Below, piece by piece: positions 26,050-55,049 of a DNA stretch of 64,000 nt. Location of the stretch: NCBI GenBank assembly GCA_027919835.1, contig JANVFP010000010.1, positions 682,001 through 746,000 of the forward strand. The letters run 5' to 3'. Under the pieces are notes generated by a model. The model searched no databases and was not told the DNA's origin. It saw only the letters and a program-made list of their open reading frames with translations. Source of the stretch: Lentinula raphanica (lineage: Eukaryota > Basidiomycota > Agaricomycetes > Agaricales > Omphalotaceae). The position numbers and the translations under genes are program-made. Each line of letters opens with the position of its first letter. Positions within the stretch are counted from its first letter, which is position 1.

Positions 26050-26362
26050 ATGGGGCTCCGAGTCTTGTTCACACCCATTCTCTACTACCTGGCTTCTCTC
26101 TCTGTCAATCTCTGTCCCGCCTTTCTTGCTACACCCATACGTCCTGTGATGAGCTTTGTCCTGTAGTAAGCGTTTTCTTTCTAGTATTGGCATGATCAAA
26201 ATTGATGACCAGCGAAACTGCTGTAGCCTGCATATTAGGAGGCCCATTCTACTGGGGACGTTCTGAGGGTCTTCATGCCCGTGCCATGAAGAAACAGTCA
26301 CAGAGTATTCAGTCAAGCTCGTACTTTGGCAATTCTACAGAGATCAAGATAAACATCGCTAG
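26050..26362 (+). pseudogene. Truncated copy E of the secreted protein family
   Basis: Exon 1 (26050 to about 26145) encodes an intact signal peptide, MGLRVLFTPILYYLASLSVN followed by LCPAFLATPIRP, like exon 1 of copies A-D, and ends in a GTGATG donor. Further on, the conserved second-exon sequence CTTCATGCCCGTG and ETVTEYSVKLVLWQFY can be read, but relative to copies B and C there are about two extra bases before VTEYSV. The frame stops at TAG 26360-26362, soon after the first conserved strand. The remaining two thirds of the family protein are not found downstream. Interpreted as a decayed copy. Confidence 0.6.
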
Positions 26363-27690
26363 TATGAGGGTGGTCCTTCGAACCATACCCGACGGATTTC
26401 ATTGCACCCCATAGCTCGAAAAGGAGCACCTCATTACGTTTGGTGAGTACTGGCCTGTATTCAACTGGCCGTCAAGCTTCTGGGCAAGGACGGCCAACAT
26501 GCAGTGGAATTGAATGATCATTTGACAAGTTTCGTATTCGACCGACGCAGCTGTGGGTCGGCCCAGTTGCAGTTTCTGCGGTAGCCCCACTCTCTCACCG
26601 CTGATGCCTGTCTTATGAGTTCGTTATGATGTTCTTTTTTGACTGAAACATTTTGACATAGTACTAGTCACTATAGTGAACGTTGGATTTCAGTTCGCGG
26701 AGCGTCATCCAAGACTAGTTATTTTGGATTCATTGATGGACCAAAGGCGTTGATATGCAATGATATGCTATAGGCTATGCTTGTACTAGGTAAGACAAAT
26801 TGGATGATATGCACACCCCAGATCTGTGGCGACTCCAATTAGGACCAATCGTTATCAAGCACACATCTGCACACATGCACTACAATCAGTCGCATGTGGA
26901 CCATCGCGAATATAACGCCTCTGAGTTTTGATAGACATTTCTTGCTCCCTGTAGTGACCGGTCCACGTATGAAAGCAAGAAGCGTATCTGCTATCGGATA
27001 AGAAACAGTTTGCGCGGGTACATTATCCTTTCAGTGCAAGACATGATCCTGTATTTCTCTGGGCTTCGATGCTCATTGCTAACTGTTCATTTGTTCATCC
27101 TATAGTGACTCTGATTGTATTCTGAGTACTTTTGGCTCCCGTGTCAATCGCGCGGGCAAATTCTTATCTGCACAGGCTTTCACGTACACATGTCACAGAG
27201 GTACGGCCCTGATGTCGCAGTTGAATCGTCCATTTCACTTTGTTCTACCTTCATATAAACTCTGGAATTCACAGAACACATAGAACGCCATTGCAAGCTC
27301 GAAGCTCTGATAGCTTGACCTATGTATCAGATCTGAAATAACCACTGGCAATGTCGTCTCTCTATCAGCTCATGTCGATATCGACTGATATCGCCAAACA
27401 CTGGAAAATGCCTCAATGACGGCGTGTGTACCTCTGTCTAGTAGACGCTGTGTGCATTGCATTTGGGGCGCGGCTGCATAGCATTATTCATCGTAATCGA
27501 TCATCAGCAGATGAAACTGAGATGCGCTTGAGCAGGCCTGAGGTGAAATTTTGTCTTTAAAACATGAGATTTTTTTCTTACCGTCGTTTCTCATTACCCA
27601 CCGCTGGCCGGTTCAATCTCACTCGAAATCCCATCTCTGCCTTTCAAACTCGAATATTCCAAAACGCACAGTGCCCAGTATCTTTGCACG
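26363..27690. other. Intergenic, with conserved promoter of copy D at its right end
   Basis: No gene recognised in 26400-27540. From about 27550 to 27690 lies a block shared with the upstream regions of copies A, B and C: a CTTTAAAA/CTTAAAA element about 130 bp before the ATG, the ACCGTCGTTT block, GCTGGCCGGTTCAATCTCA, and ACAGTGCCCAGTATCTTTGC immediately before the start. Confidence 0.5.
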
Positions 27691-28807
27691 ATGCGACTCT
27701 TGCTCACACTCATCCTCTACCTTGGGCTCCTCGTTCCCACCTCTATCCTTGCGGCTCCCATACAAGCTATTACGGTGGGCTTTTCTGCTCCAGAATTGAA
27801 ACAATCGATGGCTTACCATTGTGACTGATGTGCAGCAACATCTTGAACCGACCGGTACTGCAAACGGTACTGCAAACAATACTGCGAACGGTACTGCGAA
27901 CGGTACTGCAAACGGTACTGCGAACGGTACTGCAAACGGTACTGCGAACGGTACTGCGAACGGTACTGCGACCGGTACTGAAGAAATAGTCAAATCATAC
28001 TATTCAGTCGAGCTCGAGCTTCGTCACATCCATGTCAAGGGAGATAAACCTCACGTCATCGACGTGACCGTCGCAGACAATTTGCGTAGTGCCGTAGAGC
28101 TTCTACTCCCTTGGACCCTGCCGATACTCATTGCTTCCAAGGAGGGGCACCGACAGGATCCAAACAATGTGCCCGACAAACGCCGCCGCTCCTACCGAGT
28201 TACCAAGCTGTCTTATACGGGCAGTTCTTCAGATCCCTCGGATGTTTTCTACGATCTAGTACCCGAAGGAATCTAGATTGAGTGCAACGACTGTCTTGCA
28301 ATTCTCAAGCTACGAGTATGACTTGGGAGACTACCGAAGGAACCACGAGGCCTGTTAAGGATGCTGAGTCCCAGCTGAGCATCAAAATTTTGGATCCAAG
28401 CGGTCGACACCAGGCCTTGTATGATCATGCTGTATGTTTCTATTACCCCGATCTCTTTGAAGTGAAACCTCCCTTGAGTGAATTGGAATTGTTCCACCAC
28501 ATTGTGGGCAGAGGCTCATACGATAACGGTGGTCGTTCTTTGAAGCGCTTCGTTCTCATTAGCGAAGGATACCTGGTTAGCCCCCTGAAAATATGTATAC
28601 TACTTCACACTGACTGTCCTCTGCTGTTAGAATCCATTGCCAGAGGGGACAAGAGTCCCGTTCAGTCTCGAGGAGTCGACGTGGGTACACAGCGAAATTG
28701 CACCCTGCAAGCCGGTGATTGATGGACATGTGTTCTTGTTCACAGAGGAAGCGTGGAAGGCCACGTGTGTGAGGAATCAGGAAAGAAGGGTGAGGGAGGT
28801 GGGGTGA
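27691..28807 (+). CDS. Secreted protein of unknown family, copy D, with N-G-T repeat
   Basis: Exon 1 from ATG 27691 encodes the signal peptide MRLLLTLILYLGLLVPTSIL and AAPIQAIT, ending in a GTGGGC donor. Exon 2 starts QHLEPTG and runs into a tandem 12-bp repeat coding for GTAN units (about 27851-27975); each unit makes an N-G-T glycosylation sequon. Then comes the family core: YYSVELELRHIHVKGDKPHV, TVADNLRSAVELLLPWTLPI, VTKLSYTGSS. The direct frame stops at 28276. A 71-nt intron (28259..28329, weak donor GTACCC) would restore the reading to LSIKILDPSG and FYYPDLFE, at the length seen in copy B. A last intron (GTTAGC...TTAG) leads to NPLPEGTRVPFSLEESTW and a stop at 28807. If the weak intron is not used, this copy is truncated. 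No known domain recognised. Confidence 0.65.
27851..27975 (+). repeat. 12-bp tandem repeat coding for (G-T-A-N)n
   Basis: About ten units of GGTACTGCRAAC, in frame in exon 2 of copy D. Units differ only at one or two bases (one NTAN variant), so expansion is recent. Copies A, B and C lack it. Confidence 0.9.
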
Positions 28808-28862
28808 GGGAGGTGGGGTGAGGGAGGTGTAAGAGGTGGGAAGGGTGAGGGAGGTGAGGAGG
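28775..28862 (+). repeat. G-rich tandem repeat at the 3' end of copy D
   Basis: Repeats of GTGAGGGAGGTGGG and variants. Similar purine-rich tracts are found at the 3' end of copies A (37167-37210, minus), B (38800-38860, minus) and C (53945-54000, minus). Confidence 0.75.
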
Positions 28863-29452
28863 TTGCTACTAAGTTGAAGAGCGTGGAATGGAGCGTTACT
28901 CATCTCAATGGGAATTCTTTCCCCACTATATGATTTCTTCCATCTATACTCTAATCTATGTACTATGCCCTATGCCATTATTTATTCACTTCTACCTATG
29001 CATTTCACGCGCTTTGACTGCTTCAAGTTCAATCTCCCCGTCCAACAGCTTTCAGGGCGAGAGTAGAATCGTGCTCTACTATCTAGTAGGCGACGAGCCT
29101 CACTGATGAGTGACCTGTGTCAAATAAGAGGTCACTGAGAAGACATACCGTCGAAAGAGCAATTGCTATTGTATATGCTTCCACGCTGATATACCTGTTG
29201 TTTCAAAGTTCACTCTCCGTGTCTAGATCAGACGTAGAGCAAGTTCAAGCCCTGGTATAGTTGTATCCTTGCTGCATTGAAATAACCATCGATACTCTGC
29301 TGGCAGACAAGTCTGTGGCGAATGAATAGATAGGAATATCAGTACACCGCCAGAATATACTCCCATGTCATAAACAGATGTACTTATATATGATACTAAG
29401 AAGGCTTATCAGCATTGACAAGCCCCTGGTCCTTGTGAGCTGCAGGCAGCTA
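28808..29452. other. Intergenic
   Basis: 3' flank of copy D. The stretch at 28930-29010 resembles, in inverted orientation, the flank near 36940-37020 and 53740-53830 that lies 3' of copies A and C, so the duplicated unit includes downstream DNA. No gene. Confidence 0.4.
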
Positions 29453-29665
29453 CTAAGCGGGTGACGGTTTGGCCAAGGCCACTTCAACTCTGTAAGGTCG
29501 ATAATCTCTTGCTCTGAATTCGCAAGTCGGTGCATCTAGACAAGAAGGAGTCATGTCAGGAACAAGAAAAAAAAACAATGCGATTGACCAGTATACGGAC
29601 TCGTGGTTTTGTCTAAAAACTTCGAATTGCGTGTGTAGAGTCCAGGCCTGAGTTTTCTTGTGGGA
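29453..29665 (-). pseudogene. Inverted partial copy of the nucleoporin's last exons
   Basis: On the minus strand this segment matches the 3' end of the Nup82/Nup88-like gene (36490-36700, plus): CAAGAAAACTC..GGCCTGG, CATGAGTC/CACGAGTC-[C/G]GTATACTGG, ACTCCTTCTTxTCTAGA, GCAAGAG..TTA, and the closing GGCCAAACCGTCACCCGCTTAG versus GGTCAAACCACCATCAGCTCGGTAG. The penultimate exon end, the intron and the last exon are all present, so it is a DNA-level copy, not a processed one. No upstream nucleoporin sequence is present. Confidence 0.65.
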
Positions 29666-31283: not shown

Positions 31284-31396
31284 GATGATTGTTGAAAGAG
31301 AGAGAGAGGAATAGAGAAGTGTACGTAACCAGAAAAGGAAATGGCAGGCTGACGCGTCTCAAAGACCCACGCGTCGCTTTATTCATATCACCCATC
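31284..31396. promoter_or_regulatory. Bidirectional promoter of PRE3 and RPN12
   Basis: Only 113 bp separate the two ATGs. The stretch contains a GA-rich run and two ACGCGT hexamers (near 31351-31370), spaced about 17 bp. No copy of the yeast Rpn4 site GGTGGCAAA is visible. Confidence 0.6.
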
Positions 31397-32469: not shown

Positions 32470-32570
32470 CCTTGTACTTGCATACCTATATATTTGCTGT
32501 CTACTTCAAACGAAACTCAGGTCAATGCTAGTGGCATCAGGTGGGATAAATGTACAGTGTTCTTTGCCAT

Positions 32571-33633: not shown

Positions 33634-33744
33634 AGTGATTGTGAAGGAACAAGTGACGCGTCCTTCCTCAAGTTGCGCGTTCTATGGGCACGTGCACCAT
33701 TTCTCTTAGAGTCGCGTCTAAGCCTGTGCAACTCACAAACGACC

Positions 33745-37303: not shown

Positions 37304-38196
37304 TCATTGAAAGGAGAATACATTTCCATTGAACCCGCTTTCCAGAGGCTGGCTTGTGCTGGGTACCCACTCCCATGCCCCAGTGAAAGTGAAGGTTGTC
37401 GCATCAGGCAGCCTCTAGAAATTGGCCGGGTGCAGTCAGTGTGAAGCATTCGATCGTTTCAGGGGACTCAACTGACCAGCTCAAGCATGTTATCCACCGA
37501 TGCCAACAAGACCTTGACATTGCCTTCACCATATCCAACTTGGCCCACCAATGCGTGGTGAGAGAAATATTCAAAGAAGTAAGGTAGTTGACGTTCGAAG
37601 ATTTCTGGGTGAATCCAAGTCATGTAAAGACGGGCGCGTAGTGAACCGTTTGGATTCAAGACTGTGATGTCCAGCCAGAATACACCATCGAAATCCATGC
37701 TCTCTCGAAAGTGCTCTGCTGGACCGATCGTTTCCGAGATATGAGTAGAACTACCCATATAAGTCAGCTTGGTGACTCGGAAGGAGCTGCGTTTATCAGG
37801 GACTGTCTCTGGATCTAGTGGGCGATGCTTTTGGCGAGCATCAAATACTGGCAGGATCCATGGAAGCTCATATCTCACGCCCTCACCCAACCACCCCGCG
37901 ACCTCCTCCGAGATGAAAGGCTGATATTTACCATCCTTTGGGCGGATATGCCAAAGTTTGACCTCGACTGAGTACTCTGTAACTGGTCCTTCACCATGGA
38001 CACCAGAAGGGGCATGAGTATCGATGCTCCCAGTCGAATGACCCTCCTTCAAGTTGCGTGCGATCAGTAAAAGATTCAAACACTCCAAAATTTCTAAGCT
38101 CACCGTAGGATCCGGAGTAGTACGTATCGGCGTCGCAAAAACAGAGGCGGGACAGATGAGGCCCAGGTAGAAGATAGATGTAAACAAGAGTCGCAT
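37304..38196 (-). CDS. Secreted protein of unknown family, copy A
   Basis: Exon 1 from ATG 38196: signal peptide MRLLFTSIFYLGLICPASVF, then ATPIRTTPDPT, donor GTGAGC. After an intron ending near 38047 the mature protein starts EGHSTGSIDT. Core: GPVTEYSVEVKLWHIRPKDG, ISEEVAGWLGEGVRYELPWI, RVTKLTYMGSSTH, FWLDITVLNPNGSLRARLYM, FEYFSHHALVGQVGYG. Donor GTCAGT after NMLEL, last exon RLPDATTFTFTGAWEW, GNVFSFQ-stop at 37304. Reading this last exon is supported by its match to copies B, C and D. About 280 codons, no known domain. 522 bp from copy B, same strand. Confidence 0.7.
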
Positions 38197-38718
38197 CGTG
38201 CAAAGAAACTGGGCACTGTGCGTTTTTGGGGTTTTTTGAATGCTGAAAGCAGATGTGTGATTGTTGATTGAGATTGGACCGGCCAGCGGTGGGGGATGAA
38301 AAACGACAGTCGGAAATGTTCATGGTTTTTAAGAAGAGATTTTCGGCCCAGCCCTGCATGTGTTCAAGCCCGGATCCATCAGCAGATGATCAATTCCGAT
38401 GGATTCCCTTGGATTCCAACAGATTCCAACCTATATTCCAACTTCCAAGCAATGTATGCAGCGCCCCGATGAGTATCACTGTTTCGTAGCATCTGGTAGC
38501 AGCTGGTAGCCTCTCCTGTCACAATGCAATGATTGAGGTATTTTCTACTTTGGGAGTTTTAACTGATATGCCACGATAACTGACATACTAAGAAACCTCG
38601 AACTCATCCGACTCAGAGGAAGAAAAAACATCGACAGCGTAATAACGATCCAACTCAGATCCTGGAAGTTGGACTCAGTATAGTATGCATACGTAGAAGG
38701 AAATGATCAACGGCATAA

Positions 38719-39779
38719 TCAACTCTTTGAAACAAATGGTAACCGCTGTCTCATTCTTGTTTTCCAATTACTAGGCTTGTCACCCTTGGCAACATCCTCA
38801 GCGCCTCCTCCTCCTCCTCCTTCGCTACCTTCTCCGCTTCCCTCACCTCCCTTGACACTCCTTACAAACCCTTCTTGAAACGAGAACGTGGTCTCTCCAC
38901 CGAGCTCCATTGTTTTCCGAGGTGCTAATCCGCTGGGTTGCCACCTCGACTTCTCGACGGAGAAGTCGATCATTTCCCCATCGCAAGTTGTAAGCTAGAA
39001 CGATGTACAGTCAGTGTGAGGCATTCTATCTTTTCAAGACTAACCAGTCCGTTTGGTCGAATCAATGTGATCTGGTTCTTGACAAGATTGTGGCCATATC
39101 CAACTCTGCCTTCCAATGCGGTGGTACCGAACAAAAAATCCTCTACACCCAATTTGCCTTGCTGATAACGTTCGGGGTAGACCAAACATATAACAAGACG
39201 GGCGCGTGGCATACCGTTCGACCCCAATATCATGAGGTACAGCCAGTACTCGTCAATCCCAACGGACCACCCATCGCGTGGCATGTGAAAGTGCTTGGCT
39301 TGATCTCGAGGGACAATGGACTCGCGTCCAGTTGTATAACTGCCCTCATAAGACAGCTCGCTGACTCGGAAGGAGCTGTGTAAATCAGGCACTGTCTTTG
39401 GATCTAGTCGGCGATTCTCCTCGTCAGCAACAAATATCGGCAGGATCCATGGAAGTAGAATTTCCATGCCATCGCGCAAATTGTCTGCGACCTCCTCTGT
39501 GATGACGTGAGGTTTGGTTCCCTTGGGGCGGAGATGGTGGAGTTTGAGCTCGACTGTGTACTCTGTAACTGGTTTTTCATCACGGGCATGAAGGGTACGA
39601 GTGACGTTCCCAGTCGAATCAACCTCCTGCACAGCATTTTCGATGGTCAGCGAAAGATATTGCCCACTCCAAAACCAAAGCTCACCGTAGAACTCGGAGT
39701 GGCACGTATCGGTGTTGCAAGAACAGAGGCGGGACAGAGGAGGCCCAGGTAGAGAATAAGTGTAAGCAAGAGTCGCATC
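38719..39779 (-). CDS. Secreted protein of unknown family, copy B
   Basis: Three exons. Exon 1 from ATG 39779: MRLLLTLILYLGLLCPASVL, ATPIRATPSST. Exon 2: EVDSTGNVTRTLHARDEKPV, TEYTVELKLHHLRPKGTKPH, TEEVADNLRDGMEILLPWIL, FRVSELSYEGSYT, GIDEYWLYLMILGSNG, ALEGRVGYGHNLVKNQITLI. Intron GTTAGT...TTCTAG. Exon 3: LTTCDGEMIDFSVEKSRWQP, METLGGETTFSFQ-like end, then a Gly/Glu-rich tail (GEGSGEGSEGGGGGG) and KTRMRQRLPFVSKS-stop at 38719. Best preserved copy, and used here as reference for the family. Predicted to be secreted; no cysteine pattern typical of small effectors. Confidence 0.75.
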
Positions 39780-40533
39780 GTGCAAAGATACTGGGCACTG
39801 TGCGTTTTCGGGGGGCTTTGAATTCGTAAAGCAGAGATGCGATATTCGAGTGAGATTGAACCGGCCAGCGGTGAGGGATGAAAACGACGGTCGGAAATTA
39901 TTGAGGTTTTAAGACAAAAATTTCAGCTCAGGCCTGTTCAGGCATATCAGTTCCATCAGCAGTTGATCACCTCCACTGAATGCTAGCATTGCCCTGTAGC
40001 GCCCCGATGAGTATCAGTGTTCTGTAGCATCTGGTACTACATGTGCAATCGAGGTATTTTCTGCAAGTTAAAACACAGGTTTCATTCGATCATATTTCGG
40101 ATTGGCCGAGGACAATGGTGCCGCTGGATATATTTCTCGAAAACGATTAACTGTTTGAGGTCTGAGTACTACGAGCTTTTTTATGTAACAGTCAAAATAT
40201 CCAGATTTTGCAACATTGGTGACTTACAGTGACTTACTCAGAACGTCCGTACCAGCCTGTATCAGCCTATTGAGGCGGTATCAAGCACTGGCGACGAATG
40301 TTGGAATTCGACAATGGTCTACGTGGTTAAGAGACCGTGGGCGCTTACTAATAATAGGCTACATATAGCGAGAACATCACCCTCGACGGCAGTGATGGAA
40401 GGACAGACGGACAGGGTCAAAAGACAAGGACACTTTTTTGTGTCTTTTGACCGGAGGACTCCGACAGTAGGCCGTTCAATTGACCTGTCCTCGTCACCTG
40501 ATAGTCACGCTATGGACTTGCTGTAGACGCCCG
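39780..40533. promoter_or_regulatory. Copy B promoter and unique spacer up to the retroelement
   Basis: 39780-39920 is the promoter block shared by A-D. 39985-40065 (GCGCCCCGATGAGTATCA, GTAGCATCTGGTA) is shared with the upstream regions of A (38460) and C (55305). A 12-bp stem inverted repeat GGTCAAAAGACA at 40415-40426 / 40441-40452 lies near the retroelement border. No gene. Confidence 0.5.
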
Positions 40534-40630
40534 ATAAGATAGGCTTATCGTCTCACTAGACCTGAAGATAAAAGTATAACTACAATAATATATATATCAG
40601 AGTAGGTTTGGGCTAGGCTTGGCCTGGCGC
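40534..40630. repeat. Repeat b2 (97 bp) of the Ngaro-like element
   Basis: Identical to 40863-40959. Begins ATAAGATAGGCTTATCGTCT on the plus strand. Confidence 0.95.
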
Positions 40631-41232: not shown

Positions 41233-42606
41233 CTAGTAAGCGTCTGTAGCCTGAGAAACAACAATGTCCTCCAATTTTCGCCAGTAGACCAAGAATGCGA
41301 GAGATGTCCAACCACCTATAGCAGCAACTACGTGAGGGGGTACCCCTGCTAACAACAACTCAACAGCCCCGCCGATTCGGAAGCTATGGCCGTAAACCTT
41401 GTCCATGCGTTCATTTGACCAGATTTTGGACACAACTGTGAGAAATCGGGATTTTGTCATGTGTTGAGGGCATCCAGAATCGTCCATATAAGTGAAGAGT
41501 GAGTAACCTTCAGGGATTTCTGAATTCCTGGACCAATGCAGTTGAAAAGCGTCACATGGGCATAGAGCCTCAAAAAAGCGGGAAGCGACCACGTCGGCGC
41601 CGAGTTCTTTCGTTGACTTGGTCCAAGGTATGTGAAATTTCAGTCTCCTTCGTTCATTGAAGGAGATGTAATCTGAGATTGAACCGGTGCGAGAAACATG
41701 AAGTTTGGGATTAAAGGATGAAGAAGAAGGAATGGTCAGCTCGCCGAGACGACGACAGCCCCAGAAACATACAAGGGCGATAGCCCAAATAGCACAGTGG
41801 AAAGGAGAGTCCAGGTTAAGATTATTGCGAAGCACCACAAGGTGGTTAAGAGTGATAGGTGGACGAGGGAGGCGTCTCAGGTGAGAACCTTTGACGTTAG
41901 CTGCTCTCCGTGCCAGTTTCAGCCAGTCGGAGTCTTCTGGCCAGGGTGCGTGGTTGAAAATGTGCCACGAACGGATACCTGAGATCCATGTTCGAATGGT
42001 ACTTCCCGGATGTTTTCCTGCATGATGTCCCACGAAACCAGCAAGAAGGATATCAGATGCCGGCATCCGCATGTCTTCCGGAATGTTCTCTGAATCACAG
42101 AATTGTTGCCACCGTAGAATGCCTGCTGCGTAGGTGGATTTTGTTGAGCTGGAAATGCCTGAGCCCACCAGAAGCTCGGCGTCTCTAAGGATATGGGCTG
42201 GCGTGGATTTCAAAATATTTGATTTACGTTCAATTGAGTATGGGGAGAGCCATGCGTGAATGCGATCTTTGGCGGGAACAGGAGGACACAAACTGTTGGT
42301 GTTGGTAAGGGAGGAAGTCCGAATTTTCCTTGATGAGGTGGTGATAGTAAGCCCTCCCCAGGAAGGTATGTCGGGCTGAGTTACTGGTATCTTGGTAGAG
42401 GTTTGAGAGTGGCGTGCAAGTGAAGACGGAACAGATTCATGAGACGAAGATGGGATGGGTTGGTGGCAGTAGAAAGAGCAAAGCGGGTCCAATGGATTCA
42501 ATTTTGGACTAGTCGTGGGCCTGATTTGAGTGACTGATGGGCGCGGAACATCAGCCAAACTCGTGCTATGAGAGCCGAGCACCAATTCATGAAGTGGGCT
42601 AAACAA
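41233..42606 (-). CDS. Tyrosine recombinase of the Ngaro-like element
   Basis: 457 codons. Core-binding part SSTKSTYAAGILRWQQFC, catalytic part with Arg in FWGCRRLGEL (residues about 282-290), H407-x-x-R410 in GHSFRIGGA, W433 in GGWTS and Tyr441 in YWRKLEDIV. The R...H-x-x-R...W...Y set is complete, so the enzyme may be active. The first ~100 residues are low-complexity and could in part be linked by splicing to the preceding RT frame. Confidence 0.88.
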   Translation of the reverse strand: MFSPLHELVLGSHSTSLADVPRPSVTQIRPTTSPKLNPLDPLCSFYCHQPIPSSSHESVPSSLARHSQTSTKIPVTQPDIPSWGGLTITTSSRKIRTSSLTNTNSLCPPVPAKDRIHAWLSPYSIERKSNILKSTPAHILRDAELLVGSGISSSTKSTYAAGILRWQQFCDSENIPEDMRMPASDILLAGFVGHHAGKHPGSTIRTWISGIRSWHIFNHAPWPEDSDWLKLARRAANVKGSHLRRLPRPPITLNHLVVLRNNLNLDSPFHCAIWAIALVCFWGCRRLGELTIPSSSSFNPKLHVSRTGSISDYISFNERRRLKFHIPWTKSTKELGADVVASRFFEALCPCDAFQLHWSRNSEIPEGYSLFTYMDDSGCPQHMTKSRFLTVVSKIWSNERMDKVYGHSFRIGGAVELLLAGVPPHVVAAIGGWTSLAFLVYWRKLEDIVVSQATDAY

Positions 42607-42661
42607 AGGAATGCACGGAATACTTGAGAAATGGGCAATTTACAAGGACTGCTAGCGTTAC

Positions 42662-44690
42662 CTAAACATAAACAAGTACTTCTTGTAGCTCCTTTGGGAG
42701 CTTGAACATCAGAGGAAGTTTGAATTCTGCAGGCCCGAGTTCCCCGCGCGAGATTGGGTCTGCCAAATTGTCTTTCGAACGAACATATTCGAGTTTGGGG
42801 TGAATGAAAAGAGGGCCTGTGACACCGCATGTGCGTTGCACTGCCAAGTTAATCCAGTAATTCGGGCTCTGAGCCTTGTCCATAGCACCGATAGTGCCTT
42901 TGTTGTCAGAGTGGATGAGTATGTGGATGTCGTGGAAGTCCATGACTTCCAAGTAATAGACGAGAAGCTCGATGGCTACCGTCTCGAGCCAGCAGATGTC
43001 TCGACCCAGAATTTTCCAGTGAGGCCGGAGACGGAAAGCTGCCCATCGGTCGCCAATGATGATGCCGATTCCCCATTCGAGAGAAGCATCAACGAAGATG
43101 TTGAGATCCTGAAGTGGGCCCAGTGGACGGAGTTCACGAAAGTAATCAGGGCCCAAGAGTTGCTGGTACCACCAACACAACTCTGTGATAACCGAAGCTG
43201 GAAGATATCTGCCCCTCGACTCTTCCCATGAGCTTCTGTAGGAAGCCATGAAGTTCGAGATGGGCGGAAGGTGAGAACGTCCCTCGAAATAGATGAACGC
43301 AATGTAGCAGAGAGTTCCGTGAATTTGTTCGACTGCGCTGAGTGGAGCCCTGTTGTGCTCATACGCGGCGATGAAGACATGAATGCGCTCGAGGTACTTC
43401 AGTCTTTTTTCGTCCGGGAGGCTGACTCGTTTGCGTTCAAGGTCCCATAGGAGGCCGATGAACTGTGATACTGTAGTGAATTCTTCGTCTCCCTTAACAA
43501 GGTTCCAAGGGACGTCGATATGTTCAATGGACTTGAGCATGGTCGCCTTGTTGTATCGATATGATCCAGAGTGCGTGGGGGTCCGGAATGGTTTGAGATC
43601 ATCCTCATATTTGAGAATGGCATCTAGCAATTTTACACGCCATATGTCCACCACTGCGTTGGCGATCATACCTGCATTGCTGCTGGCTGAAGATAGTCCA
43701 AAGCAGATCGTGTGGTCCACATAGAACTTCTTGTCGGGACCTTGAACTACCAGGAAAGGTTTGTGATGAGGAAGAGCTGGGCAAGTTCGATGGAATTTTT
43801 TGATATCAAGGCCACAGACTTGAGTGCCCGGGGGAGCATTTGCCACCTGAAATCAGGAATAGCATAATTGAGTACATGAAAGTTCGGAAATTGGAAGTCA
43901 ATGGAAAGTCAATGTACGGAAACGCCACTAGGCTGTACATGTGAATTGGACTTTGTAGTCCCGCTAACTTTGCGGGACTGGACATCGCGTACAACGCCAT
44001 TTGTCTCACCAACTTGGTGGACATTCAGTGTTGTTTGAAACTGAAATGCACTTCGATAGATGAAAGAAAGGACTCACCATTTCTGCCACCTTAGGCGCTG
44101 TATCAAAGCGAGTGGGAAAGAAGTCCTTCTGGACGAAAGCGTTGACCGAAGGCATGAGACCTCTCTCCGAGTTCCGGCCACCTTTTGAAAGGTTTCTGCA
44201 AACCCTGTACTTTGTGGGCTTGCCCGGTGCCTGAGTTTGTGTGGCCACGATCAGCGGCGAGACATAGAAATGACCTCGCATGATCATATGCATTTCATCC
44301 TTCTCAAAGGGGCCCGACATTCGTCTAGCCGCTATCTCCTCTGCGAGATAGTCCTGAATGACATCCGGGTGCTCGTCAACGGAAGGGTGATTGGGAATGA
44401 TGATAGTTTCTTGCAGCCGAGGCATGTTGCCAATAGGGAAGCCGGTACGCAGATTATGAATGAGATCAGGGTATTGGTCAGTCAAGCCACAAGAAGAGAG
44501 TTCGGATTCCAAAGCGTCAACATTATAAGGAGTTACAATGCGTTCAAAAATTTCGTTGTGAGAAGGAACGGAGCCATGCAAGCGAGAGCGGAAATGTATA
44601 GCATCTGAGAAGTTGTGATAAGAAAGCACCGGTGGGATTGATAGCTTGAGGAAGGAGTCCGCGGGTTCATTTTCTACAAGCCCAAGAGAA
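42662..44690 (-). CDS. Reverse transcriptase / RNase H of the Ngaro-like element
   Basis: The N-terminal part (44690 to about 44077) reads SYHNFSDAIHFRSRLHGSVP, KYRVCRNLSKGGRN, VNAFVQKDFFPTRFDTAPKV. An intron of about 230 nt (GTGAGT...TTTCAG) leads to VANAPPGTQVCGLDIKKFHR, CFGLSSASSNAGMIANAVVD and the catalytic motif KYEDDLKPF. RNase H follows with DLNIFVDASLEWGIG, WLETVAIELLVYYLE and SDNKGTIGAM. Ends VLVYV-stop at 42662, a few dozen bases before the recombinase frame. All RT and RNase H key acids appear present. Confidence 0.82.
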
Positions 44691-46048
44691 GGCGTGGTGC
44701 GAAGGACTCCCGCAAAATGAGCAGGCGTGGGCGTCTCTACACTGCGCTGCCCAGCTGCAGGAACCTCTGATGTTCCATCCATAGCAGATGCGTCTCTCTG
44801 GGCCTGATTTGACACCCAGTGCTTGGCCTCTTGGCCCCAGTATCCACCTGGTCCAGAGGAGAGGCCCGTGTTTTGAGTCCACATGTTGTTCCGCTGAATG
44901 TCCCCTCTTAGCGCATCCGAGGCAACAAGGGTCGAGGGAGGCACCCTTGGTGCCCTTTGAAAAGGGCTTGGACATAATGGCTGAAGGTTTCGAAGAGGAG
45001 TGAGAGGATACAGAGTCGTGAGGGATGTGGGCCGGTTGAGAGGATATCGAGGGAGGGGCCAAAGATTGTTTGCGAAGTTCACTACGGACATTCTCCCAGC
45101 AAATTTCGTATGAACTGAGGCTAAATGGTTTGTCGTAGAGTTGGCGATCCCGCCGGAAGTCCAGTTCTCTCGGCTTCCAGATACTGTAGTATAATTCCGA
45201 CTCCGGTTGTTGGGTGCAGAAAAGGAAGTGATTACGAGTCCATATGGAACGGGTCCCCGCCTCTCCTTCGGGGTCGCATTCAGTTTCGAAGAGGAAGTAG
45301 TTTTTGGCCGCTTGTTGGAACTGAGGGTATGTGAGACCTTCGTCCTCCCTGTCCGCTGCTTTCGCGATGCCCAATTTGTCGAGGAGATCTTTCAAGACAA
45401 TGACCTCCTGCTTGATGCCATCCAAGGAAACCTTGCATGTTTTGAAAGAAGCTACATGAGCGTGGATGTGAGTCAAGTTTCTCTCGGTAAAGATTGGAAG
45501 AGGAAGGTAGCTGTTGTGTTTCGCAACTGCATATAGGCACTCGGGAATAGCCATATTCTTCGGCGCGAGGTGATCATGGGACTTTTCGATGATTGGAGGC
45601 ATAAGCTTTGGGTTTTTAGGGACAGGCTGCTCTGAGGTTGGAATCTCCTCCCTGGTTCTCTTGTCACGCGACGGGCCTCTGAGTTGTTTATATGCTGCAT
45701 GGCCGAGATGATGTATGTTGGTAGGAAGTCTTTGACGCGTTCAAAAAGGGTTTTTGAGAGTCTGATCTCCTCGAACTCGTCCTCAGAGATAGTTATTAGA
45801 GAAGCCATCGGGGAAGGTGTGTCTGTTTCGCCCTTCGACAAGTTCCGCAAGTAAACCTGGTTGTTTGCCTTCTCGATCTCCTGATTCTTCTGTAGCTTAG
45901 CCTCAAGCGAGAGATTTTTGAGGGCGGAAAGAAGATGGGCTTTGTGAGTTATCCTCTGTCTTCCTTCTACTTGGCGTGAAGCTGTGGTTCTGAGGAGAAG
46001 CCTTGGTCTGTTTCCTGAGTCTCCTGAGTCTGAAGGTATGTTTGTCAT
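44667..46048 (-). CDS. Gag-like protein of the Ngaro-like element
   Basis: Starts with MTNIPSDSGDSGNRPR (46048). A coiled coil HLLSALKNLSLEAKLQKNQE follows. There is a frame change near 45650 (ARRVTREPG to TREEIPTSEQP), which needs either a short intron or is a lesion. The second part has TYPQFQQAAKNYFLF, SYEICWENVRSEL and a Cys/His-rich end, CYGWNIRGSCSWAAQC, CSFCGSPSHHAFSW, compatible with nucleic-acid binding. Ends at 44667 and overlaps the RT frame. Confidence 0.6.
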
Positions 46049-46065
46049 AGCAGAGAGGAAGTGAA

Positions 46066-46211
46066 CGCGAAGAATTGGTCCCGAGAGGTTTACGGCAATG
46101 AGAGCGTAGAGCAAAGTCTTAAGCGCTCGCCGGCGCTTAGATAGAAAGGATGTTCTCATCGCCTTGGCCTATCATATCCTCTGAAAAGCTCACATAATCA
46201 CTTCTCTCGGA
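46066..46211. repeat. Repeat a1 (146 bp) of the Ngaro-like element
   Basis: Outer 5' repeat of the element (minus orientation); matches 40717-40862. Confidence 0.93.
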
Positions 46212-47615: not shown

Positions 47616-50600
47616 CTACACTTCGTCGAAGCTTGAAGGTATTCCATTCGAGGGGTCCAAGTTTGTCAATTCCGGGGGTCCATCCCCACCTTCGCGAGCC
47701 CATACGTCCAGTGCCGCACAGTCCCGGACGGACGAATATGAAAGCCAACGATCTTCAGAGGGGGCTTGGCCCACCCAACGGATGAGGAACTGCCAGCCAC
47801 GTCCACGCCTGCGTGAGTCGAGGACTCGTTCAATTTCGAATTCTTCATGACCATCAATAATGACTGGCGGGGGACATTCCCTTTCTCGACCGGGGAATAA
47901 GGTGGGGTCGTTAGGGACATATTTCTTCAGCACATCAACGTGGAACGTGGGGAACGTATTCAGTTGATTCGGCATGTCCAGCGTATACGAAGATGTTTCT
48001 GGATGAGCTTTCAAAATCTCGTAAGGACCATCGAAACGGGTAAAAAACTTAGCAACACGATTTTCTCCCTCCTTCGTGAATTCTCGACGACGATGAACGG
48101 TCTCCAGCCAAACCCACTCTCCTTCGTCATACACCTCCGCTTCCCGATGCCCCTGGTTATGCTGGAATGCTTGCTGAACTTTCGAAGCCGCCAATTGATC
48201 TCGAGCGGATTGCTCGAAGGCCTTCACACGCGCGAGCAGATCTTCGGCATCGGTAGCGACGCTGTCGGGAACACGGTGAACGGTCGGTGACGTGAGGACT
48301 GGGGGGAGAACTCTAGGTTGTCGGCCGTAGCGAAGCTCGAACATTGAAAGGCCGGTACTCGACACGACGCTGCTCATAAGGTTAAAACGGATATGTGGGA
48401 GGGCATGTACCCAGCCCGACTGATTACGTTCTACGTAAAAACGAATGCACTGGTTGATTGTCTTGTTGGAGCGTTCGCTTGCGCCATCGGTCTGCGGATG
48501 GAAGGCAGAAGACATCTTGAGATGCACGCCGGTCAGCTCGTGCAGCTTCTGCCAGAAGGAACTGAGGAATAGTTTGTCACGGTCCGAGATGATCTCCAGA
48601 GGTAACCCGTTGTCGCAGTACCAATGCTTGAAGAACAGCTCTGCCAGTCCTTCAGCGGTGAGGTTTACCGTCGTGGGGATTATCTTTAGGTCCGAATTGA
48701 GGCGGTCGGTCATCGTAAGAATGCAATTGAAGCCTTCGTCGACTGGGAGAGGTCCGACGAAGTCTATTGCTACGCTATCGCAACGCTGGTCTGGCACAGG
48801 GAGAGGATGTAGCGGACCCTTGCCTGAGTTGGACGTACGCCCCTTGTTACGCTGGCAACTTTCACACCCAGGGACGTAAAGTTCCATGAGTTCCTTCCTC
48901 ATTTTTGGCCAGTAATACGAAGAGGAGAGATGGGCGTAGCTTTTGTCTCCCCCTAAGTGCCCAAGATCGTCATGCGCCAACCTGAACAGAGACTCCCTAA
49001 GATCGGGCGCATTGGGAATGTACAGACGGTTCTCAAAGAACCACAGGCCTTCGTTGGTAGTGAACCCAGGTATGGTTCCACCGCAAGCAGCGAGCTTCTT
49101 CACAAGAGCATCGGAGTTATAACCAGTTCGTATACGTTCGAGAAAAGAAGGATCGGTGTGTAGCTGTAACACGCCAGCAACCGTGGCAGGTGGAGAACGA
49201 CGTGGGACTTCAAAATCGTGGATCTTTAGACCTTGTTCCGAAGGGAACGCAAAAGCCGGCACCCTACTCAATGCGTCTGCAGCCGGGTTATCCTCCCCAC
49301 GGATGTATGCAATCTCCAAGTCAAATTGGCTCATGAATTCCTGCCAGCGCAGTTGTCGACGGGACAAATCTTTCTGAGTATCGAAATTTTCCAACGTCCG
49401 ATGATCCGTTAGAACATGGACTTTCATGCCTAGTAGATCTGGCCTCCATTTTCGCAAGCACCGGATTATGGCCAGCAGTTCCTTTTCATGCACGGGGTAG
49501 TTAAGTTCAGCACCAGTCAACATCTGTGAGGTGACGTGTACCGGGCGAGCCGTATCCAAGGTGGGACCCCACTTGAGGCAACCCCCCGTTCGCCAGTCGC
49601 TAGCATCCGTAATGACAAAAATTTTATTATCTCCGGGGTTCTCATGGTCAATTACGGTAAGCGTGATGCGTTCAACAACCAAGCGTTTGATGGCATTGAA
49701 GGCAAGCTCATGCTGATCTGTCCAGACCGGAAAAATGCGGTCTGCAGCCTTCGTCGTCAAAGGATGAAGGTAACGTTCCCATTCAGCCAAATTCACTAGA
49801 TGACCAGCCACAAAACGAACCATACCCAGGAACCTCCGAACCTCTGTAGCGTTGGTAGGAGCAGGGTAGTCTAAGATTGCTTCACACTTTCGTTCCTGTG
49901 CTTCGATACCACGCTGTGAGATGTGATAACCCAGGAAGTCAATCTCTGTCTGGAAAAACTGACATTTCTTGGCATTGCAGTACAGGCTACTGTCACGGAG
50001 TGCTTCCAAGACTAAACGACAGTGTTTATCATGTTCCTCAACGGTATTAGACCATATAATAATGTCATCCAAGTAAACGTGACAGAATTTCCCAATGTAC
50101 TTACGCAAGGCCTGAGTTACTCGACGTTGTTGAACAGCAGGCGCATTACGGAGGCCCTGTGGCATGACCATCCACTCGTACAGCCCTAGGGGAGTCTGGA
50201 CTGCCACAAACGGAACTGAACGATCGGACATCCGACTCTGAAAAAACGAGTCGGTCATGTCCATCTTCCCGAAGATCTTTCCCTTAGCGCAATCTGCCAG
50301 TATATCGTCTATCAACGGCAAGGGGTGTCTGTCTGGCACTGTATTAGCATTAAGTTTACGAAAATCATTTACCCAGCGAGGAAGCGCGGACGGGTCTGCC
50401 TTCGGTATCAAGAATGCCGGCGAGGACGAGTTCGAAGAGGAAGGACGAATTCGTCCAGCACGTAAGTGTTTGTCTATGAGGGTCTCCCAGGCCTCCTTGT
50501 ATTTCCTCGGAGAAGCGTATCCACGAGTTTGTACATTCACATTGTAGTCCTTAAGTTTAATATCACACAAGATATCCGTAGGCAACTGGTCTAAATGAGG

Positions 50601-53093
50601 GATGTCCCCAAACACGGATGCAAAGTCTCGTTTCAAGGCTTCAGCCTTTTCCAACATTTCCTGCAAGGGCACGAGTTCAATGATTCTCGAATCCACCGCT
50701 GCCGCGGCGGTAGACACCGAGGTTTCGACGATGCGATCCGTCGTGAACAACGAAGGTCGAGAGTGCGTGCGAGAAGCAATTTCCTCCAAACACGGCTTCA
50801 ATCCTTCTCGAGCAGACCTACGACCGGACGAGATCTCTAAACGGGCCTTCCTACGGGTGACGCTGGGCAAAGGGAGGGACGGCGCAGGTTTGGAACGGAA
50901 ACGATCAGCATGCAACAGGTCAAATCCAGAGTCTTTCGCTATCACGGAGCGCGTAGAATAATCGATAACAATTCTATTGCGCGTAAGAAACGGGAGTCCT
51001 AAAATTACAGGCGCACATAATACTGGTACAATCAATGCTTTAACCGGACGGGAGAACCATTTCTGCGACACGTCTTCCGGTGTCAGAATACAATACTCGA
51101 AGGCGACAACTTGGCTGCGGGAATCGTTGCTCATGGCAACGTCCAGGGTCTGCGGAGACGCCAGGCGTTTACGAACTAGGCCTAGACGATCTGCCACGTC
51201 AGCACGAATTAAGACAAACGGACAACCGTCATCAAGCAAAAACTCGGCGACATAGGGTTTCTCCTTGGGAGAAGCCCTGAGTGTCGCTTTCCAAAGCAGA
51301 TGAGGCAAGGACACAGGTCCCTCATCCTCAGGCGACTCATGCACAGGCAAGGGAATAGCACATACAGAGTTAGACGAACGGACGACCTCCTCTTCGTTGG
51401 AGTCATCGGATTCCACAAGGGAAGCCATCAAGGCAGTGTCCCTTTCACGGACAACCCCTACAACGGCCGAAGTGGAAGGCTGGGCATAACGGTCGTAAAC
51501 AGCAGCACCAGATGCGTGGTGAACGATAGGAAGATTTCCATAAACAGAAGCCACGGCGGAGGGAGAAGGCCCACTCACCGCGCTCATCTCGACATCTTCC
51601 GCGAAGACTACGCTGGAAACTGCGCTGCGCTTGGGTCCTTTCTTTTCGCGTTCAAATTTAGCGGCAAGGATCTCGTTGAGGGACACGGGCTTGTTCGTCT
51701 CACGATGACGATCATCGGCGAACTTGAAGTCTGCTTTGTCGAGAGGACGACACTCGTAGTCTAAGTGGACAAATTTCGTAGGGCAGGAACGCGCATTGTG
51801 AGGGGAATAGCATTCACGGCAGTGGTAACAACCTCCGCGTTCACGTAACCCATCCTTAATGAACTCGGTCATTGGCCCAAGCAGATGCGACCCCATCGAG
51901 TTACGCGAGGGAGCGCGGGACGAGTCCCAAGATCCTGGGCGAGAGCTAGCGTTGGTGGAGTCCGCAAATGCACGGCGGCTTTGGCTGCGACCATTATCGT
52001 AATGGTCCGAGGACATCGTACGTTTCTGTTGTACGATGGTGGGAGTATAAAAGCGAGCAACGTCCATGACCTTTTCCTTCCACTCTGCGTAGGGAAGCTT
52101 AGCATCAATCTTTTCTCTGGCTAGGTGACGATTGAATTCGGTCGTGAGACCTAACTGGACCTGCGTCTTGACCTGGGATTCTTCGAAGAAGTGCTCCGTT
52201 CCCACCAAGCGCTTATTGTAAGCTTCGTACATATCGACAAATTCTTGGAAAGGACCTTCTCCTTCTCCAAGACCCATGCGGAGACGGTTACGTTCGGAAG
52301 CATGGTCGGCGTCCCAGAACCGGCCAGCCCATTTTTCGAATAAGGCGTTCCAGAACGGGGACACCGCGACGACAGTACCTTCGTCATTCACGGAGTCCTG
52401 CCAATCAAGGCGGAGCAAACGCTCGCGATTCGTGCGAATCCAAGCGAAAGCTAAATCGTGCGTGAACCCTTCATCAAGGGTAACACGCTTCTTCTCATCG
52501 GCTTCGGTGATTCCTTTGGCGGTGAAGTAGATCTCCTGCATGTAGCGCAACGCATCCAAGTGGATTAGCGTAGGACGTGCAGCCAGGATCGTAGCGGGCA
52601 GCTTGGACGTGTTTCTAAGCAAGGCACCATCATGGCTAGCGGCTCGAGAAGTCATCTCTGGATTATATTCGGAGTCGGAATCGGAAATAGGGCTAATCGG
52701 AGTGAGTCCAGGCAAACTATCAGAGCTCGAATCGGGCGACGTGACACTGTTGTTCTTTACGGGAGTCTGGGGCTGAGTCAAAACTGGAGTGGCACTAGCG
52801 GAGAACGGTTCAGGCGAGCGAGGCGGCAAAGGTGTAGGCGCGCGACTGGGCAATTCAGAAACAGGAGACGGAGTCCGTACAGGGCCGTCGTCCTCTGCTA
52901 ACACAGGCTGAGAAGAGTCCGCAAGGCGATTACGCGAGCGAGTGTTAATTCTTGGTGGAGCCAGAGTGGAATCTACATCAACGAAGACCGATTGAGTAAA
53001 TTCTTGTCTGAGCAACACACGCGTAGTAGACACAGGCAAAAACGAAGACATGGCAAAAGGTTCACGAAACACTTTGGATTTGAACACACGCAC
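47616..53093 (-). CDS. Gag-Pol polyprotein of the Gypsy chromovirus
   Basis: Single frame of 1825 codons; an alternative start at 53051 (MSSFLPVS) is more likely by context. Order of domains (approximate residues): Pro/Ser-rich N-terminus; capsid-like region about 180-350; zinc knuckle CYHCRECYSPHNARSC about 420; aspartic protease with FLLDDGCPFVLI about 620 (DDG in place of DSG/DTG); reverse transcriptase with KMDMTDSFFQ, MPQGLRNAPA and YLDDIIIWS about 1005; RNase H with VITDASDWRTGG about 1160; integrase with the H-H-C-C finger (HDDLGHLGG...CESCQRNKG, about 1390), D in VAIDFVGPLP, D in ISDRDKLFLS, and E in TDGASERSNKT; and a C-terminal chromodomain EFEIERVLDSR...WVGQAPSEDRWLS about 1755-1800. 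No stop or frameshift is visible. Confidence 0.96.
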   Translation of the reverse strand: MRVFKSKVFREPFAMSSFLPVSTTRVLLRQEFTQSVFVDVDSTLAPPRINTRSRNRLADSSQPVLAEDDGPVRTPSPVSELPSRAPTPLPPRSPEPFSASATPVLTQPQTPVKNNSVTSPDSSSDSLPGLTPISPISDSDSEYNPEMTSRAASHDGALLRNTSKLPATILAARPTLIHLDALRYMQEIYFTAKGITEADEKKRVTLDEGFTHDLAFAWIRTNRERLLRLDWQDSVNDEGTVVAVSPFWNALFEKWAGRFWDADHASERNRLRMGLGEGEGPFQEFVDMYEAYNKRLVGTEHFFEESQVKTQVQLGLTTEFNRHLAREKIDAKLPYAEWKEKVMDVARFYTPTIVQQKRTMSSDHYDNGRSQSRRAFADSTNASSRPGSWDSSRAPSRNSMGSHLLGPMTEFIKDGLRERGGCYHCRECYSPHNARSCPTKFVHLDYECRPLDKADFKFADDRHRETNKPVSLNEILAAKFEREKKGPKRSAVSSVVFAEDVEMSAVSGPSPSAVASVYGNLPIVHHASGAAVYDRYAQPSTSAVVGVVRERDTALMASLVESDDSNEEEVVRSSNSVCAIPLPVHESPEDEGPVSLPHLLWKATLRASPKEKPYVAEFLLDDGCPFVLIRADVADRLGLVRKRLASPQTLDVAMSNDSRSQVVAFEYCILTPEDVSQKWFSRPVKALIVPVLCAPVILGLPFLTRNRIVIDYSTRSVIAKDSGFDLLHADRFRSKPAPSLPLPSVTRRKARLEISSGRRSAREGLKPCLEEIASRTHSRPSLFTTDRIVETSVSTAAAAVDSRIIELVPLQEMLEKAEALKRDFASVFGDIPHLDQLPTDILCDIKLKDYNVNVQTRGYASPRKYKEAWETLIDKHLRAGRIRPSSSNSSSPAFLIPKADPSALPRWVNDFRKLNANTVPDRHPLPLIDDILADCAKGKIFGKMDMTDSFFQSRMSDRSVPFVAVQTPLGLYEWMVMPQGLRNAPAVQQRRVTQALRKYIGKFCHVYLDDIIIWSNTVEEHDKHCRLVLEALRDSSLYCNAKKCQFFQTEIDFLGYHISQRGIEAQERKCEAILDYPAPTNATEVRRFLGMVRFVAGHLVNLAEWERYLHPLTTKAADRIFPVWTDQHELAFNAIKRLVVERITLTVIDHENPGDNKIFVITDASDWRTGGCLKWGPTLDTARPVHVTSQMLTGAELNYPVHEKELLAIIRCLRKWRPDLLGMKVHVLTDHRTLENFDTQKDLSRRQLRWQEFMSQFDLEIAYIRGEDNPAADALSRVPAFAFPSEQGLKIHDFEVPRRSPPATVAGVLQLHTDPSFLERIRTGYNSDALVKKLAACGGTIPGFTTNEGLWFFENRLYIPNAPDLRESLFRLAHDDLGHLGGDKSYAHLSSSYYWPKMRKELMELYVPGCESCQRNKGRTSNSGKGPLHPLPVPDQRCDSVAIDFVGPLPVDEGFNCILTMTDRLNSDLKIIPTTVNLTAEGLAELFFKHWYCDNGLPLEIISDRDKLFLSSFWQKLHELTGVHLKMSSAFHPQTDGASERSNKTINQCIRFYVERNQSGWVHALPHIRFNLMSSVVSSTGLSMFELRYGRQPRVLPPVLTSPTVHRVPDSVATDAEDLLARVKAFEQSARDQLAASKVQQAFQHNQGHREAEVYDEGEWVWLETVHRRREFTKEGENRVAKFFTRFDGPYEILKAHPETSSYTLDMPNQLNTFPTFHVDVLKKYVPNDPTLFPGRERECPPPVIIDGHEEFEIERVLDSRRRGRGWQFLIRWVGQAPSEDRWLSYSSVRDCAALDVWAREGGDGPPELTNLDPSNGIPSSFDEV

Positions 53094-53432
53094 ACAAGCT
53101 ATGAATCACGAGGGCACACAAGGCTACTGCACGCGCGCGAAGACGAACAAGCCAGAGGGCTATACGTTCCTTCGTTATATTGAAACACAAGCAGTTACGC
53201 AGAAAGCGTGAGAACGGTGAACTCGTTCAAGAACAAGTTCAGAGACGCGACAGAGACGAGAGAACACGAGTATATGCGCTTCAAAAGAAGTGCAGAGCAC
53301 AAGCCAAGTAAAATATACGCGTTTTGTAGAGTTTTGATAAAGGCGAGATGAAAAAAAAACTTGTCGACGACTTCGAGAAGTCGGCGAATAGTAATCTTCG
53401 AAAGAAGCGTGGCGTAAAAGACAAAAAAAAAG

Positions 53433-53636
53433 TGGAAACGTACCGTATACGGTACGAAACACTAAAGCGAGGCACGAGCTTGTCTAGAACACGCTGTATT
53501 GCGAAGAGCGATGCGAGAGTATACGGGATGATGCAAGTACAGAAGTAAGAAGTAAAGTTATCCTAAATGGGAAGAGCACCTATTTATAGGTGTCTCGCTG
53601 ATGTTAGTAAGCCGATGTAAACAGCCTATGTTTACA
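53433..53636 (-). repeat. 5' LTR of the Gypsy element (204 bp)
   Basis: Identical to 47256-47459. Palindrome at 53439-53456. TATAAATA on the minus strand is the probable promoter for the gag-pol transcript. Confidence 0.95.
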
Positions 53637-54060
53637 GGGGCATGATTTCAAGGCTAACCATTGGCCCGTCTTCTTCAAGAAGTTGTGTAGCCTCGAATTC
53701 GACTCGAAATTCTGGAGGTTTGATGGGGAACGTAAAAGTAGCCAAAGCACATAGTATGCATAAGATAGAAGTAAATTGACGGCATAGAGCATAGAGCATA
53801 GATCAAGGCATAAACAGAAAGAATTCTCTATAGAGTGAGTGAAAGAAGGTGAAAGACTGGACACAGGACGAGTAAATGCTCCATTTCACAGCCTTCAATT
53901 CGTCGGACCGAGTTACTAGCCAGCTCGCGACTCGATTAACCCCGCACTCTTCCCTCCCCTCCTGCACCTTCCTCCACTCCCTCCCTCCGGCCCTTCCTCC
54001 GACGTTCCACCTTCGATATCCCCTGCTACTGCCCTTGACGACCCCCTTCCCTGCTCAGAG
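53637..54060. other. Duplicated 3' flank of copy C
   Basis: Starts directly at the Gypsy target duplication. 53733-53935 matches the flank of copy A (36905-37110). CT-rich tract at 53945-54000. No gene. Confidence 0.6.
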
Positions 54061-55049
54061 CTATGAAAGCTTTGGTCTCTTCGGGGAACGGTCAACATTG
54101 TCTGGCTCATCCATCGTGTGTGAATTCTTGGGCCTACGGGGCCGTTCAAACAAGAACACAGTTTGTCCCGCCAGAGTCTCTGTTTTCCGAGGTTCGGTTC
54201 CACTGGGTTGCCACTCTGACTTGTCGACCGAAAAGCTAATCGCCTTGAAGTTGCAAGTTGGAATCTAGATATTGGGAGAGTACAGTTAGTGCGAAGCTCG
54301 AAGCATTTAATCTTTTCAGAGGACTGACCAGCGTATTCGGCGCGATTAATGCAAACTGGTCCTTGACAGGACCAGAGCCATATCCAGCTCTGCCCACCAA
54401 TGCGAATTTAAAGAAATCAAGTACGCTCAGGTTGGCTTGTTGATAATGTTTGGAGCGGGTCAAAGATAAAACAAAATTGGCGTGGTACCAACCGTTTATC
54501 CGAACCAAGATGTACAGCCAGTATTCATCTACATTGTGGGAATACCCACCACTGGGTGGCTTCGGCGGTGGCACCGGGACGTCACACATGATTAGTTCTT
54601 GGTTATGTGTGGAACTGCCCAAATAAGTCAGTTTGGTGACCCGGAAGGAGCTGTATTTGTCAGGCACTGTCTCTGGATTTGGATCGTGTTTATTCTTGAA
54701 AGCCTTGAGTACTGGCAGGATCCATGGAAGCAGAATTTCCGCGCCATTACGCAAATTGTCTGCAATCTGCTCCGTGATGATGTGAGGTTCCGTGACGTAG
54801 AATTGCCGAAGTCTGAGTTCAACTAGGTTCAACTGTGTACTCCAGTGTAACTGCTTTTGCATCACGGGCATGAAGGGCACGAGTGACGTCTCCAGTCGAA
54901 TCAACCTCCAATATGGTAAGCAAAAGATATCAACCAGTTCAAAATTAAAAGCTCACCGTAGGAATCGGTGTAGCACGTATCGGTGTCACAAAAACAGAGG
55001 CGGGGCAGAGGAGGCCCAGGTAGAGGATAGGTGTAAGCAAGAGTCGCAT
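54061..55049 (-). pseudogene. Secreted protein family copy C, broken by a 10-bp duplication
   Basis: Exon 1 from ATG 55049 encodes the signal peptide MRLLLTPILYLGLLCPASVF, then VTPIRATPIPT, donor GTGAGC. Exon 2 begins VDSTGDVTRALHARDAKAVT and LEYTVE, after which the frame hits a stop. The cause is a tandem 10-bp duplication: GTTCAACT occurs at 54817-54824 and again at 54827-54834 (plus strand). In the other frame the family core continues normally (VELRLRQFYVTEPHIITEQI, RNGAEILLPWILPV, RVTKLTYLGSSTH, YWLYILVRINGWYH). Exon 3 after GTCAGT...ATCTAG reads IPTCNFKAISFSVDKSEWQP and ends at 54061. Everything except the 10 bp looks intact, so the inactivation is recent or an assembly artefact. Confidence 0.7.

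Follow-up and report, generated by a model that had tools for sequence, protein, structure and literature searches.

What are the five related, partly broken genes that lie together on contig 10 of Lentinula raphanica, and what might their products do? We addressed this for a window of 64,000 nt (positions 682001-746000 of contig JANVFP010000010.1) from this agaric of the shiitake genus (according to a taxonomy look-up), a wood-decaying saprotroph. The first-pass annotation had described a family of five copies, A to E, with a signal-peptide exon and no recognised domain. These copies are real, but five is an undercount, as the family is spread over the genome at no fewer than 17 loci. In our best reading, the genes belong to a young, putatively secreted and diversifying family that serves a saprotrophic mushroom as an arsenal or in recognition, and the window cluster is its unstable part; we give a probability of roughly 0.4 to a role in antagonism or defence outside the hypha. 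Many fungal secreted proteins are without a known domain or role, and this family provides a handle on the orphan secretomes of wood-decay mushrooms: with its at least 17 loci it offers a candidate regulatory sequence tag, a testable rate pattern and strain differences, and it bears on the origin of new secreted families within one species.

The assembly searched for family loci comprises 49 Mb in 75 contigs. Overlapping searches with the proteins of copy B, P0007, P0010, C33 and C15 and with a piece of C40 gave 17 loci on eight contigs, a lower bound for the genome: five on contig 10, five on contig 1 (63k, 980k, 1065k, 1068k and 1071k), two on contig 40 and one each on contigs 5, 15, 25, 33 and 14. 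We call the A-E cluster window-type and the loci outside contig 10 dispersed; proteins of both sets are homologous (hhalign probability 99.65%, E 4.8e-25). The decayed contig 14 copy gives weak matches (E 0.94 and 0.0097) and is backed by a 5' element described below and by remnants of the leader and the last exon. Open gene models of 245-406 aa were obtained at 11 of the loci. Two introns are present in ten of them, the best-scoring model of C1:63k being without the first, and the introns are in phase 0 as read from the coordinates, the second intron of C1:1071k being ambiguous. For C1:980k and C25 the top-scoring model is unlike that of the deposited orthologue, which ranked second. In one contig 40 copy, C40b (L078 5355-5800), an apparently duplicated intron-leader segment stands ahead of the core exon.

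Within the window, the three-exon plan of leader, core and last exon proposed earlier applies to A, B, C and D, and for E no last exon was found. The copies indeed occur in all states from intact to decayed (Table 1). Splice modelling gives A and B three exons each with GT-AG introns. The protein of A equals, letter for letter, the deposited C8R42DRAFT_665419 (P0009) of the same assembly. Copy B, which has a Gly-rich linker and a basic C-terminus, is one base shorter than annotated at first (38719-39779). Its deposited model from the same assembly (P0002) is built on different splice sites and goes out of frame inside the core; in strain FB446, 232 aa of B are found identically in P0001, an entry that agrees with exon 3 as modelled here and is without the N-terminal part. 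Despite its frameshift, copy C retains leader, core and last exon, and P0005, its annotated orthologue in strain EV360, also aligns to the C stretch in two frames. The core of D is interrupted by an in-frame TAG (28274-28276), its remaining last-exon piece reads FSLEESTWVHSE, and its EV360 orthologue is P0013. A profile hidden Markov model (HMM) whose input included A and a piece of B matched pieces of C and D, absent from that input, at E 3.4e-39 and 1.8e-23; its matches to A and B (1.8e-87 and 4.5e-60) arise partly by construction. Copy E fell below the report limit of the HMM (E<=0.05), but since it matches B by blastn at E 1.5e-11 and 9.5e-8, it is not a chance match.

All 11 open models start with a leader that combines a hydrophobic core with a junction of the form hydrophobic residue-A-[TAI]-P (the junction judged by eye), in keeping with the signal-peptide exon of the first-pass annotation, and the rest of these proteins holds no hydrophobic 19-mer above a Kyte-Doolittle (KD) value of 1.55. 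Hydropathy and motif thus point to secretion. The predicted model of A (mean predicted local distance difference test, pLDDT, 75.6; predicted template modelling score, pTM, 0.72; 12 sequences) suggests a strand, a long helix at 78-103 with the LPW motif and then further strands, an order that may resemble the cystatin-like one (strand, helix, strands); the model of P0007 is weaker (63.8, pTM 0.65, 11 sequences). Nine of ten hand-cut tails have a net charge of +2 to +9. Short peptide repeats, unlike in the two cases, occur in the linker or tail of the C1:1065k copy (L072) and the C14:401k copy (L079), NSLERAAD-like and SWTDRAKDRAV-like; together with the Gly-rich linker of B and the TANG repeat of D, linkers seem to be repeat-prone separately in each copy.

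The family also shares an element upstream of its start codons. The sequence CACCGCTGGCCGGTTCAATCTCACTC, with up to 3 mismatches, has eight sites in the genome, all eight upstream of family copies, and its reverse has none. When one mismatch at most is allowed, the degenerate core CTGGYCGGTYNANTCTCRC likewise occurs at family loci in 13 of 13 cases, among them decayed copies of contigs 14 and 40; at exactly two mismatches 28 further sites appear, one of them in the family, and the reversed control gives 17 at up to two mismatches. Of 15 copies measured, 12 have the end of the element 64-77 nt upstream of the ATG, among them C1:63k and C5, whose elements contain a one-base gap (6 mismatches if ungapped); C1:1065k (102 nt) and C40b (49 nt) are exceptions, and copy E is without the element. 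Since a TTAAAA-like stretch precedes it in several copies and a CGCACAGTGCYCA block follows, its position may be close to where the transcript begins. As for RNA structure of the 5' region, none of 7 pairs showed a compensatory change.

We found that divergence of the window copies is markedly uneven along the gene. In pairs among A to D (gap columns omitted), the 100 nt before the ATG are 80-96% identical and exon 1 73-89%, against 43-69% for intron 1 and 52-83% for the region from -300 to -101; the 3' flank, measured for three pairs, is 44-68% identical. The core proteins share 44-53% of their residues. Pooled over A to D, the proportions of differing silent and replacement sites (pS and pN) are 0.25 and 0.15 in exon 1 and 0.41 and 0.36 in exon 2. 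A nearly fixed start and export signal joined to a fast exported part is the pattern expected for a protein that faces an ever-changing target.

For the open core codons of A, B and C, the M1a-M2a site test assigned 26-46% of codons to a class with a ratio of replacement to silent rates (omega) of 3.9-8.3 and 13-24% to omega 0. With 0, 3, 5 and 8 columns masked around gaps, twice the log-likelihood difference (2dlnL) was 23.2 (155 columns), 17.7 (119), 13.3 (98) and 13.4 (76); for the 98-column set, none of 85 null simulations (completed of 120 planned) reached 13.3, the maximum being 4.90. The unmasked fit gave 17 sites a posterior above 0.9, and 11 of them map to loops of the predicted A model, versus 42 of the 138 remaining columns (Fisher p 0.012), which suggests loop enrichment; the mapped sites come from a fit 1.1 lnL units short of the best optimum, some of the loops adjoin gaps and are therefore aligned with less certainty, and in most proteins loops are the faster-evolving parts. 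This test and the strain-specific copies described below bear out the fast birth-and-death evolution that had been proposed.

Weakly constrained young genes, which duplicate under relaxed selection and decay and have little function in the contig 10 cluster, could also produce this picture. Three of the five window copies are broken, pairwise omega is near 1, and young Agaricomycete genes have been tied to weak constraint, according to the accessible part of PMC8893723. We nevertheless regard such an origin as improbable: a codon class at omega 0 stands beside the fast class, 11 of 17 loci remain open, B is unchanged over 232 aa in another strain, and in neutral runs the B core exon stayed stop-free in just 56 of 2000 after 139 substitutions (indels not counted).

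Several observations nonetheless weigh against our best reading. Maximum-likelihood pairwise omega for exon 2 is 1.06 (A-B), 1.04 (B-C), 0.91 (A-C) and 0.81 (B-D), none different from 1, and a counting method gives 0.98 for A-B (bootstrap 0.67-1.43). The site test is based on three sequences, of which copy C is frameshifted today, and leaves gene conversion outside its model. Among dispersed copies, the pair C1:1065k-1068k has omega 0.38 (2dlnL 14.1) and C1:980k-C25 0.66 (2dlnL 3.17, not significant; bootstrap 0.43-0.92); because these pairs look constrained, diversification is not family-wide. The mature part has 0-2 cysteines, and many effectors are richer in them. The basic tail, which might be a membrane-active peptide, is missing in A and C1:63k, and tail amphipathy exceeds that of shuffles (below 0.05) in only one of ten tails. 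Finally, A and B agree at 41 of 50 positions (82%) of intron 2, more closely than at their core-exon silent sites (pS 0.35), which points to patchy gene conversion. Conversion alone, in place of selection on promoter and leader, might then account for the conserved 5' end and could inflate the site test too, and the lower silent divergence of exon 1 than of exon 2 in A to D fits this. It is quite unlikely as the whole explanation of the 5' end, since the element persists even in dispersed copies that share no more than 20-26% protein identity with P0004, the orthologue of A, and in a 260-nt upstream alignment little besides the element is common to all.

Is the family confined to L. raphanica? 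Three protein searches, two at E<=1 and one at E<=10, yielded 6, 12 and 7 hits respectively, in total 14 different proteins among 5.8 billion, all from L. raphanica (this assembly or other strains). We therefore use "species-specific" in the sense of undetected elsewhere by searches that require shared five-residue words; the accessible part of PMC11053714 names protein sequences for L. edodes, L. raphanica and four more species of the genus. The first-pass annotation had named a lack of homologues elsewhere among the findings that would refute its proposal, and here the outcome was divided: further loci and further strains do carry homologues, and none were found outside the species. Among the matches listed from the open-access literature none described the family, most subscription journals lying outside the search.

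The earlier statement that no domain is recognisable is likewise upheld by profile searches for a characterised family. Pfam-A gave no family at E<=10 for A and B; for nine members including A the best E was 0.063, with five families matched by one member each and none over the gathering cut-off, and NCBIfam and PHROGs gave no significant match in the members scanned. Sequence search of the PDB reached at best E 0.014 over 54 positions (4k4k). We take this match and those to 5dqv and 6gsz (E above 1) as chance, as they changed between profiles, and matches from E 0.035 up were mostly antibody chains with Gly-rich linkers aligned to the tail of B. The profile alignment for one protein and one PDB search used a C1:1068k row with about 32 last-exon residues in the wrong frame, replaced in later alignments by the deposited P0011. 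A transposable-element origin of the genes was rejected as well, on account of the two introns in ten open models and of there being no transposase, integrase or reverse transcriptase domain in the members scanned.

Copy content varies between strains. P0003 (strain EV361), P0006 (FB446) and P0012 (F5880) have their best core match in the whole genome in copy A at 50-53%, their leaders are 88-91% identical to leader exons of this genome, and in the tree a branch supported at 100/100 has them and the window copies on the same side. In FB446, P0006 is probably a neighbour of P0001, the orthologue of B, because their locus numbers are close and the contig is of equal size. Dispersed C1:980k, C25 and C15, in turn, have clear orthologues in other strains (P0007, P0008 and P0014). 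Varying copy content would suit intraspecific non-self recognition, whether in mating, in fusion or as nuclear incompatibility, through strain-specific secreted alleles acting between mycelia. These stable dispersed counterparts speak against it, as does the lack of any Pfam match, and hence of a known incompatibility domain, in the members scanned; we consider it very unlikely.

The family is best read as a putatively secreted one, with diversifying selection in the cluster and constraint elsewhere, and as probably co-regulated via its private element. It would encode soluble secreted proteins, so far of L. raphanica only, from no fewer than 17 loci, the five window copies being the unstable cluster among them. 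The shared element would switch the genes on jointly and the conserved leader would export the product, in which the core exon, set between phase-0 introns, and the last exon are predicted to form one compact alpha/beta domain, basic-tailed in some members. Exposed loops would vary under positive selection, with a framework (leader, LP helix, last-exon W and F) that stays, and would bind a variable partner outside the hypha, be it a microbial competitor, another fungus or a grazer. Such an extracellular partner is most likely because the loops change while the framework stays. The protein would then act as an antagonist or in defence.

Comparison with known systems, made by description only, points to the Ssp1 (poSSP) family of Pleurotus ostreatus as a candidate that may work alike. 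According to the accessible part of PMC7105643, it is induced up to 700-fold in interspecific contact. Both families are multi-copy, have no annotated domain and come from white-rot agarics, and the signal peptide of Ssp1 has a putative counterpart here; Ssp1 measures about 18 kDa and has homologues in 22 species of fungi, in contrast to 245-406 aa and one species here. Of the traits that this source gives for small secreted proteins (SSPs), a size below 300 aa holds for A (257 aa) and not for B (316 aa), leader features by hydropathy and junction motif appear in all open models, and the majority trait of having no known domain or relatives is seen here with relatives in the same species only. 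Secreted self-signals that regulate colony ageing, secondary metabolism or fruiting, with diversity as species-specific tuning, offer another explanation: the same part of PMC7105643 describes fruiting-body secretomes as rich in secreted orphans and Ssp1 as shifting idiophase and fruiting, developmentally expressed genes are enriched in young genes (accessible part of PMC8893723), and a common 5' element suggests a single programme. Positive selection and strain-specific copies exceed the needs of tuning one signal, which makes self-signals unlikely. Effector-like SSPs of Heterobasidion parviporum are regulated in paired cultures (accessible part of PMC6955712). Fungal effector-like SSPs resemble the family in leader, lack of known domain, clustering, fast evolution and strain variability, and differ in that the family has few cysteines, several members over 300 aa and an exclusive 5' element. 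Saprotrophy of L. raphanica sets the family apart from them too.

Conotoxins and amphibian defence peptides combine a conserved leader exon with a fast mature part, as this family does. Those families are short peptides, in contrast to the large folded domain predicted here, and no toxic activity is known for the L. raphanica family. A venom-like system could be imagined in which a near-fixed, species-private promoter-plus-leader cassette with its own element delivers a folded payload that positive selection diversifies rapidly; dispersed copies would be its stable set and the cluster its strain-variable one, and the targets would be microbes, other fungi or grazers. We consider this rather unlikely.

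Table 1. Window copies and associated features (window positions)
Feature	Position	Strand	Details
Copy A	37304-38196	-	intact; exons 38196-38104, 38046-37477, 37414-37304; 257 aa
Copy B	38719-39778	-	intact; exons 39778-39686, 39626-39045, 38994-38719; 316 aa
Copy C	54061-55049	-	broken; start of core exon out of frame with remainder
Copy D	27691-28807	+	stop codon in core exon; frame change; last-exon piece retained
Copy E	26050-26362	+	relic; leader and core start alone
12-nt tandem repeat	27849-27980	+	11 copies, translated as TANG; separates leader and core of D
5' element of D	27599-27624	+	0 mismatches
5' element of A	38266-38291	-	2 mismatches to 26-mer
5' element of B	39848-39873	-	0 mismatches
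5' element of C	55119-55144	-	0 mismatches

The plus strand carries D and E, with 1.3 kb between them, and the minus strand A and B. For the contig 15 and contig 40 loci, no telomere link was seen, the first 400 nt of either contig being without a tandem repeat. Between C and the A/B pair, the window contains an integrase-like stretch and a Ty3-type retroelement. The former (41233-46159, minus strand) consists of long open reading frames, one of which weakly matches phage integrase (E 0.001, below cut-off), and is perhaps a tyrosine-recombinase element; beside it, a perfect direct repeat of 97 nt has its copies at 40534 and 40863. The latter (47616-53093, minus strand) is an open 1825-aa Ty3/gypsy-type polyprotein frame with reverse transcriptase, RNase H, integrase zinc, SH3 and chromo domains. 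The sole match to Rfam in the window at the gathering threshold is a tRNA gene at 1417-1500 on the plus strand.

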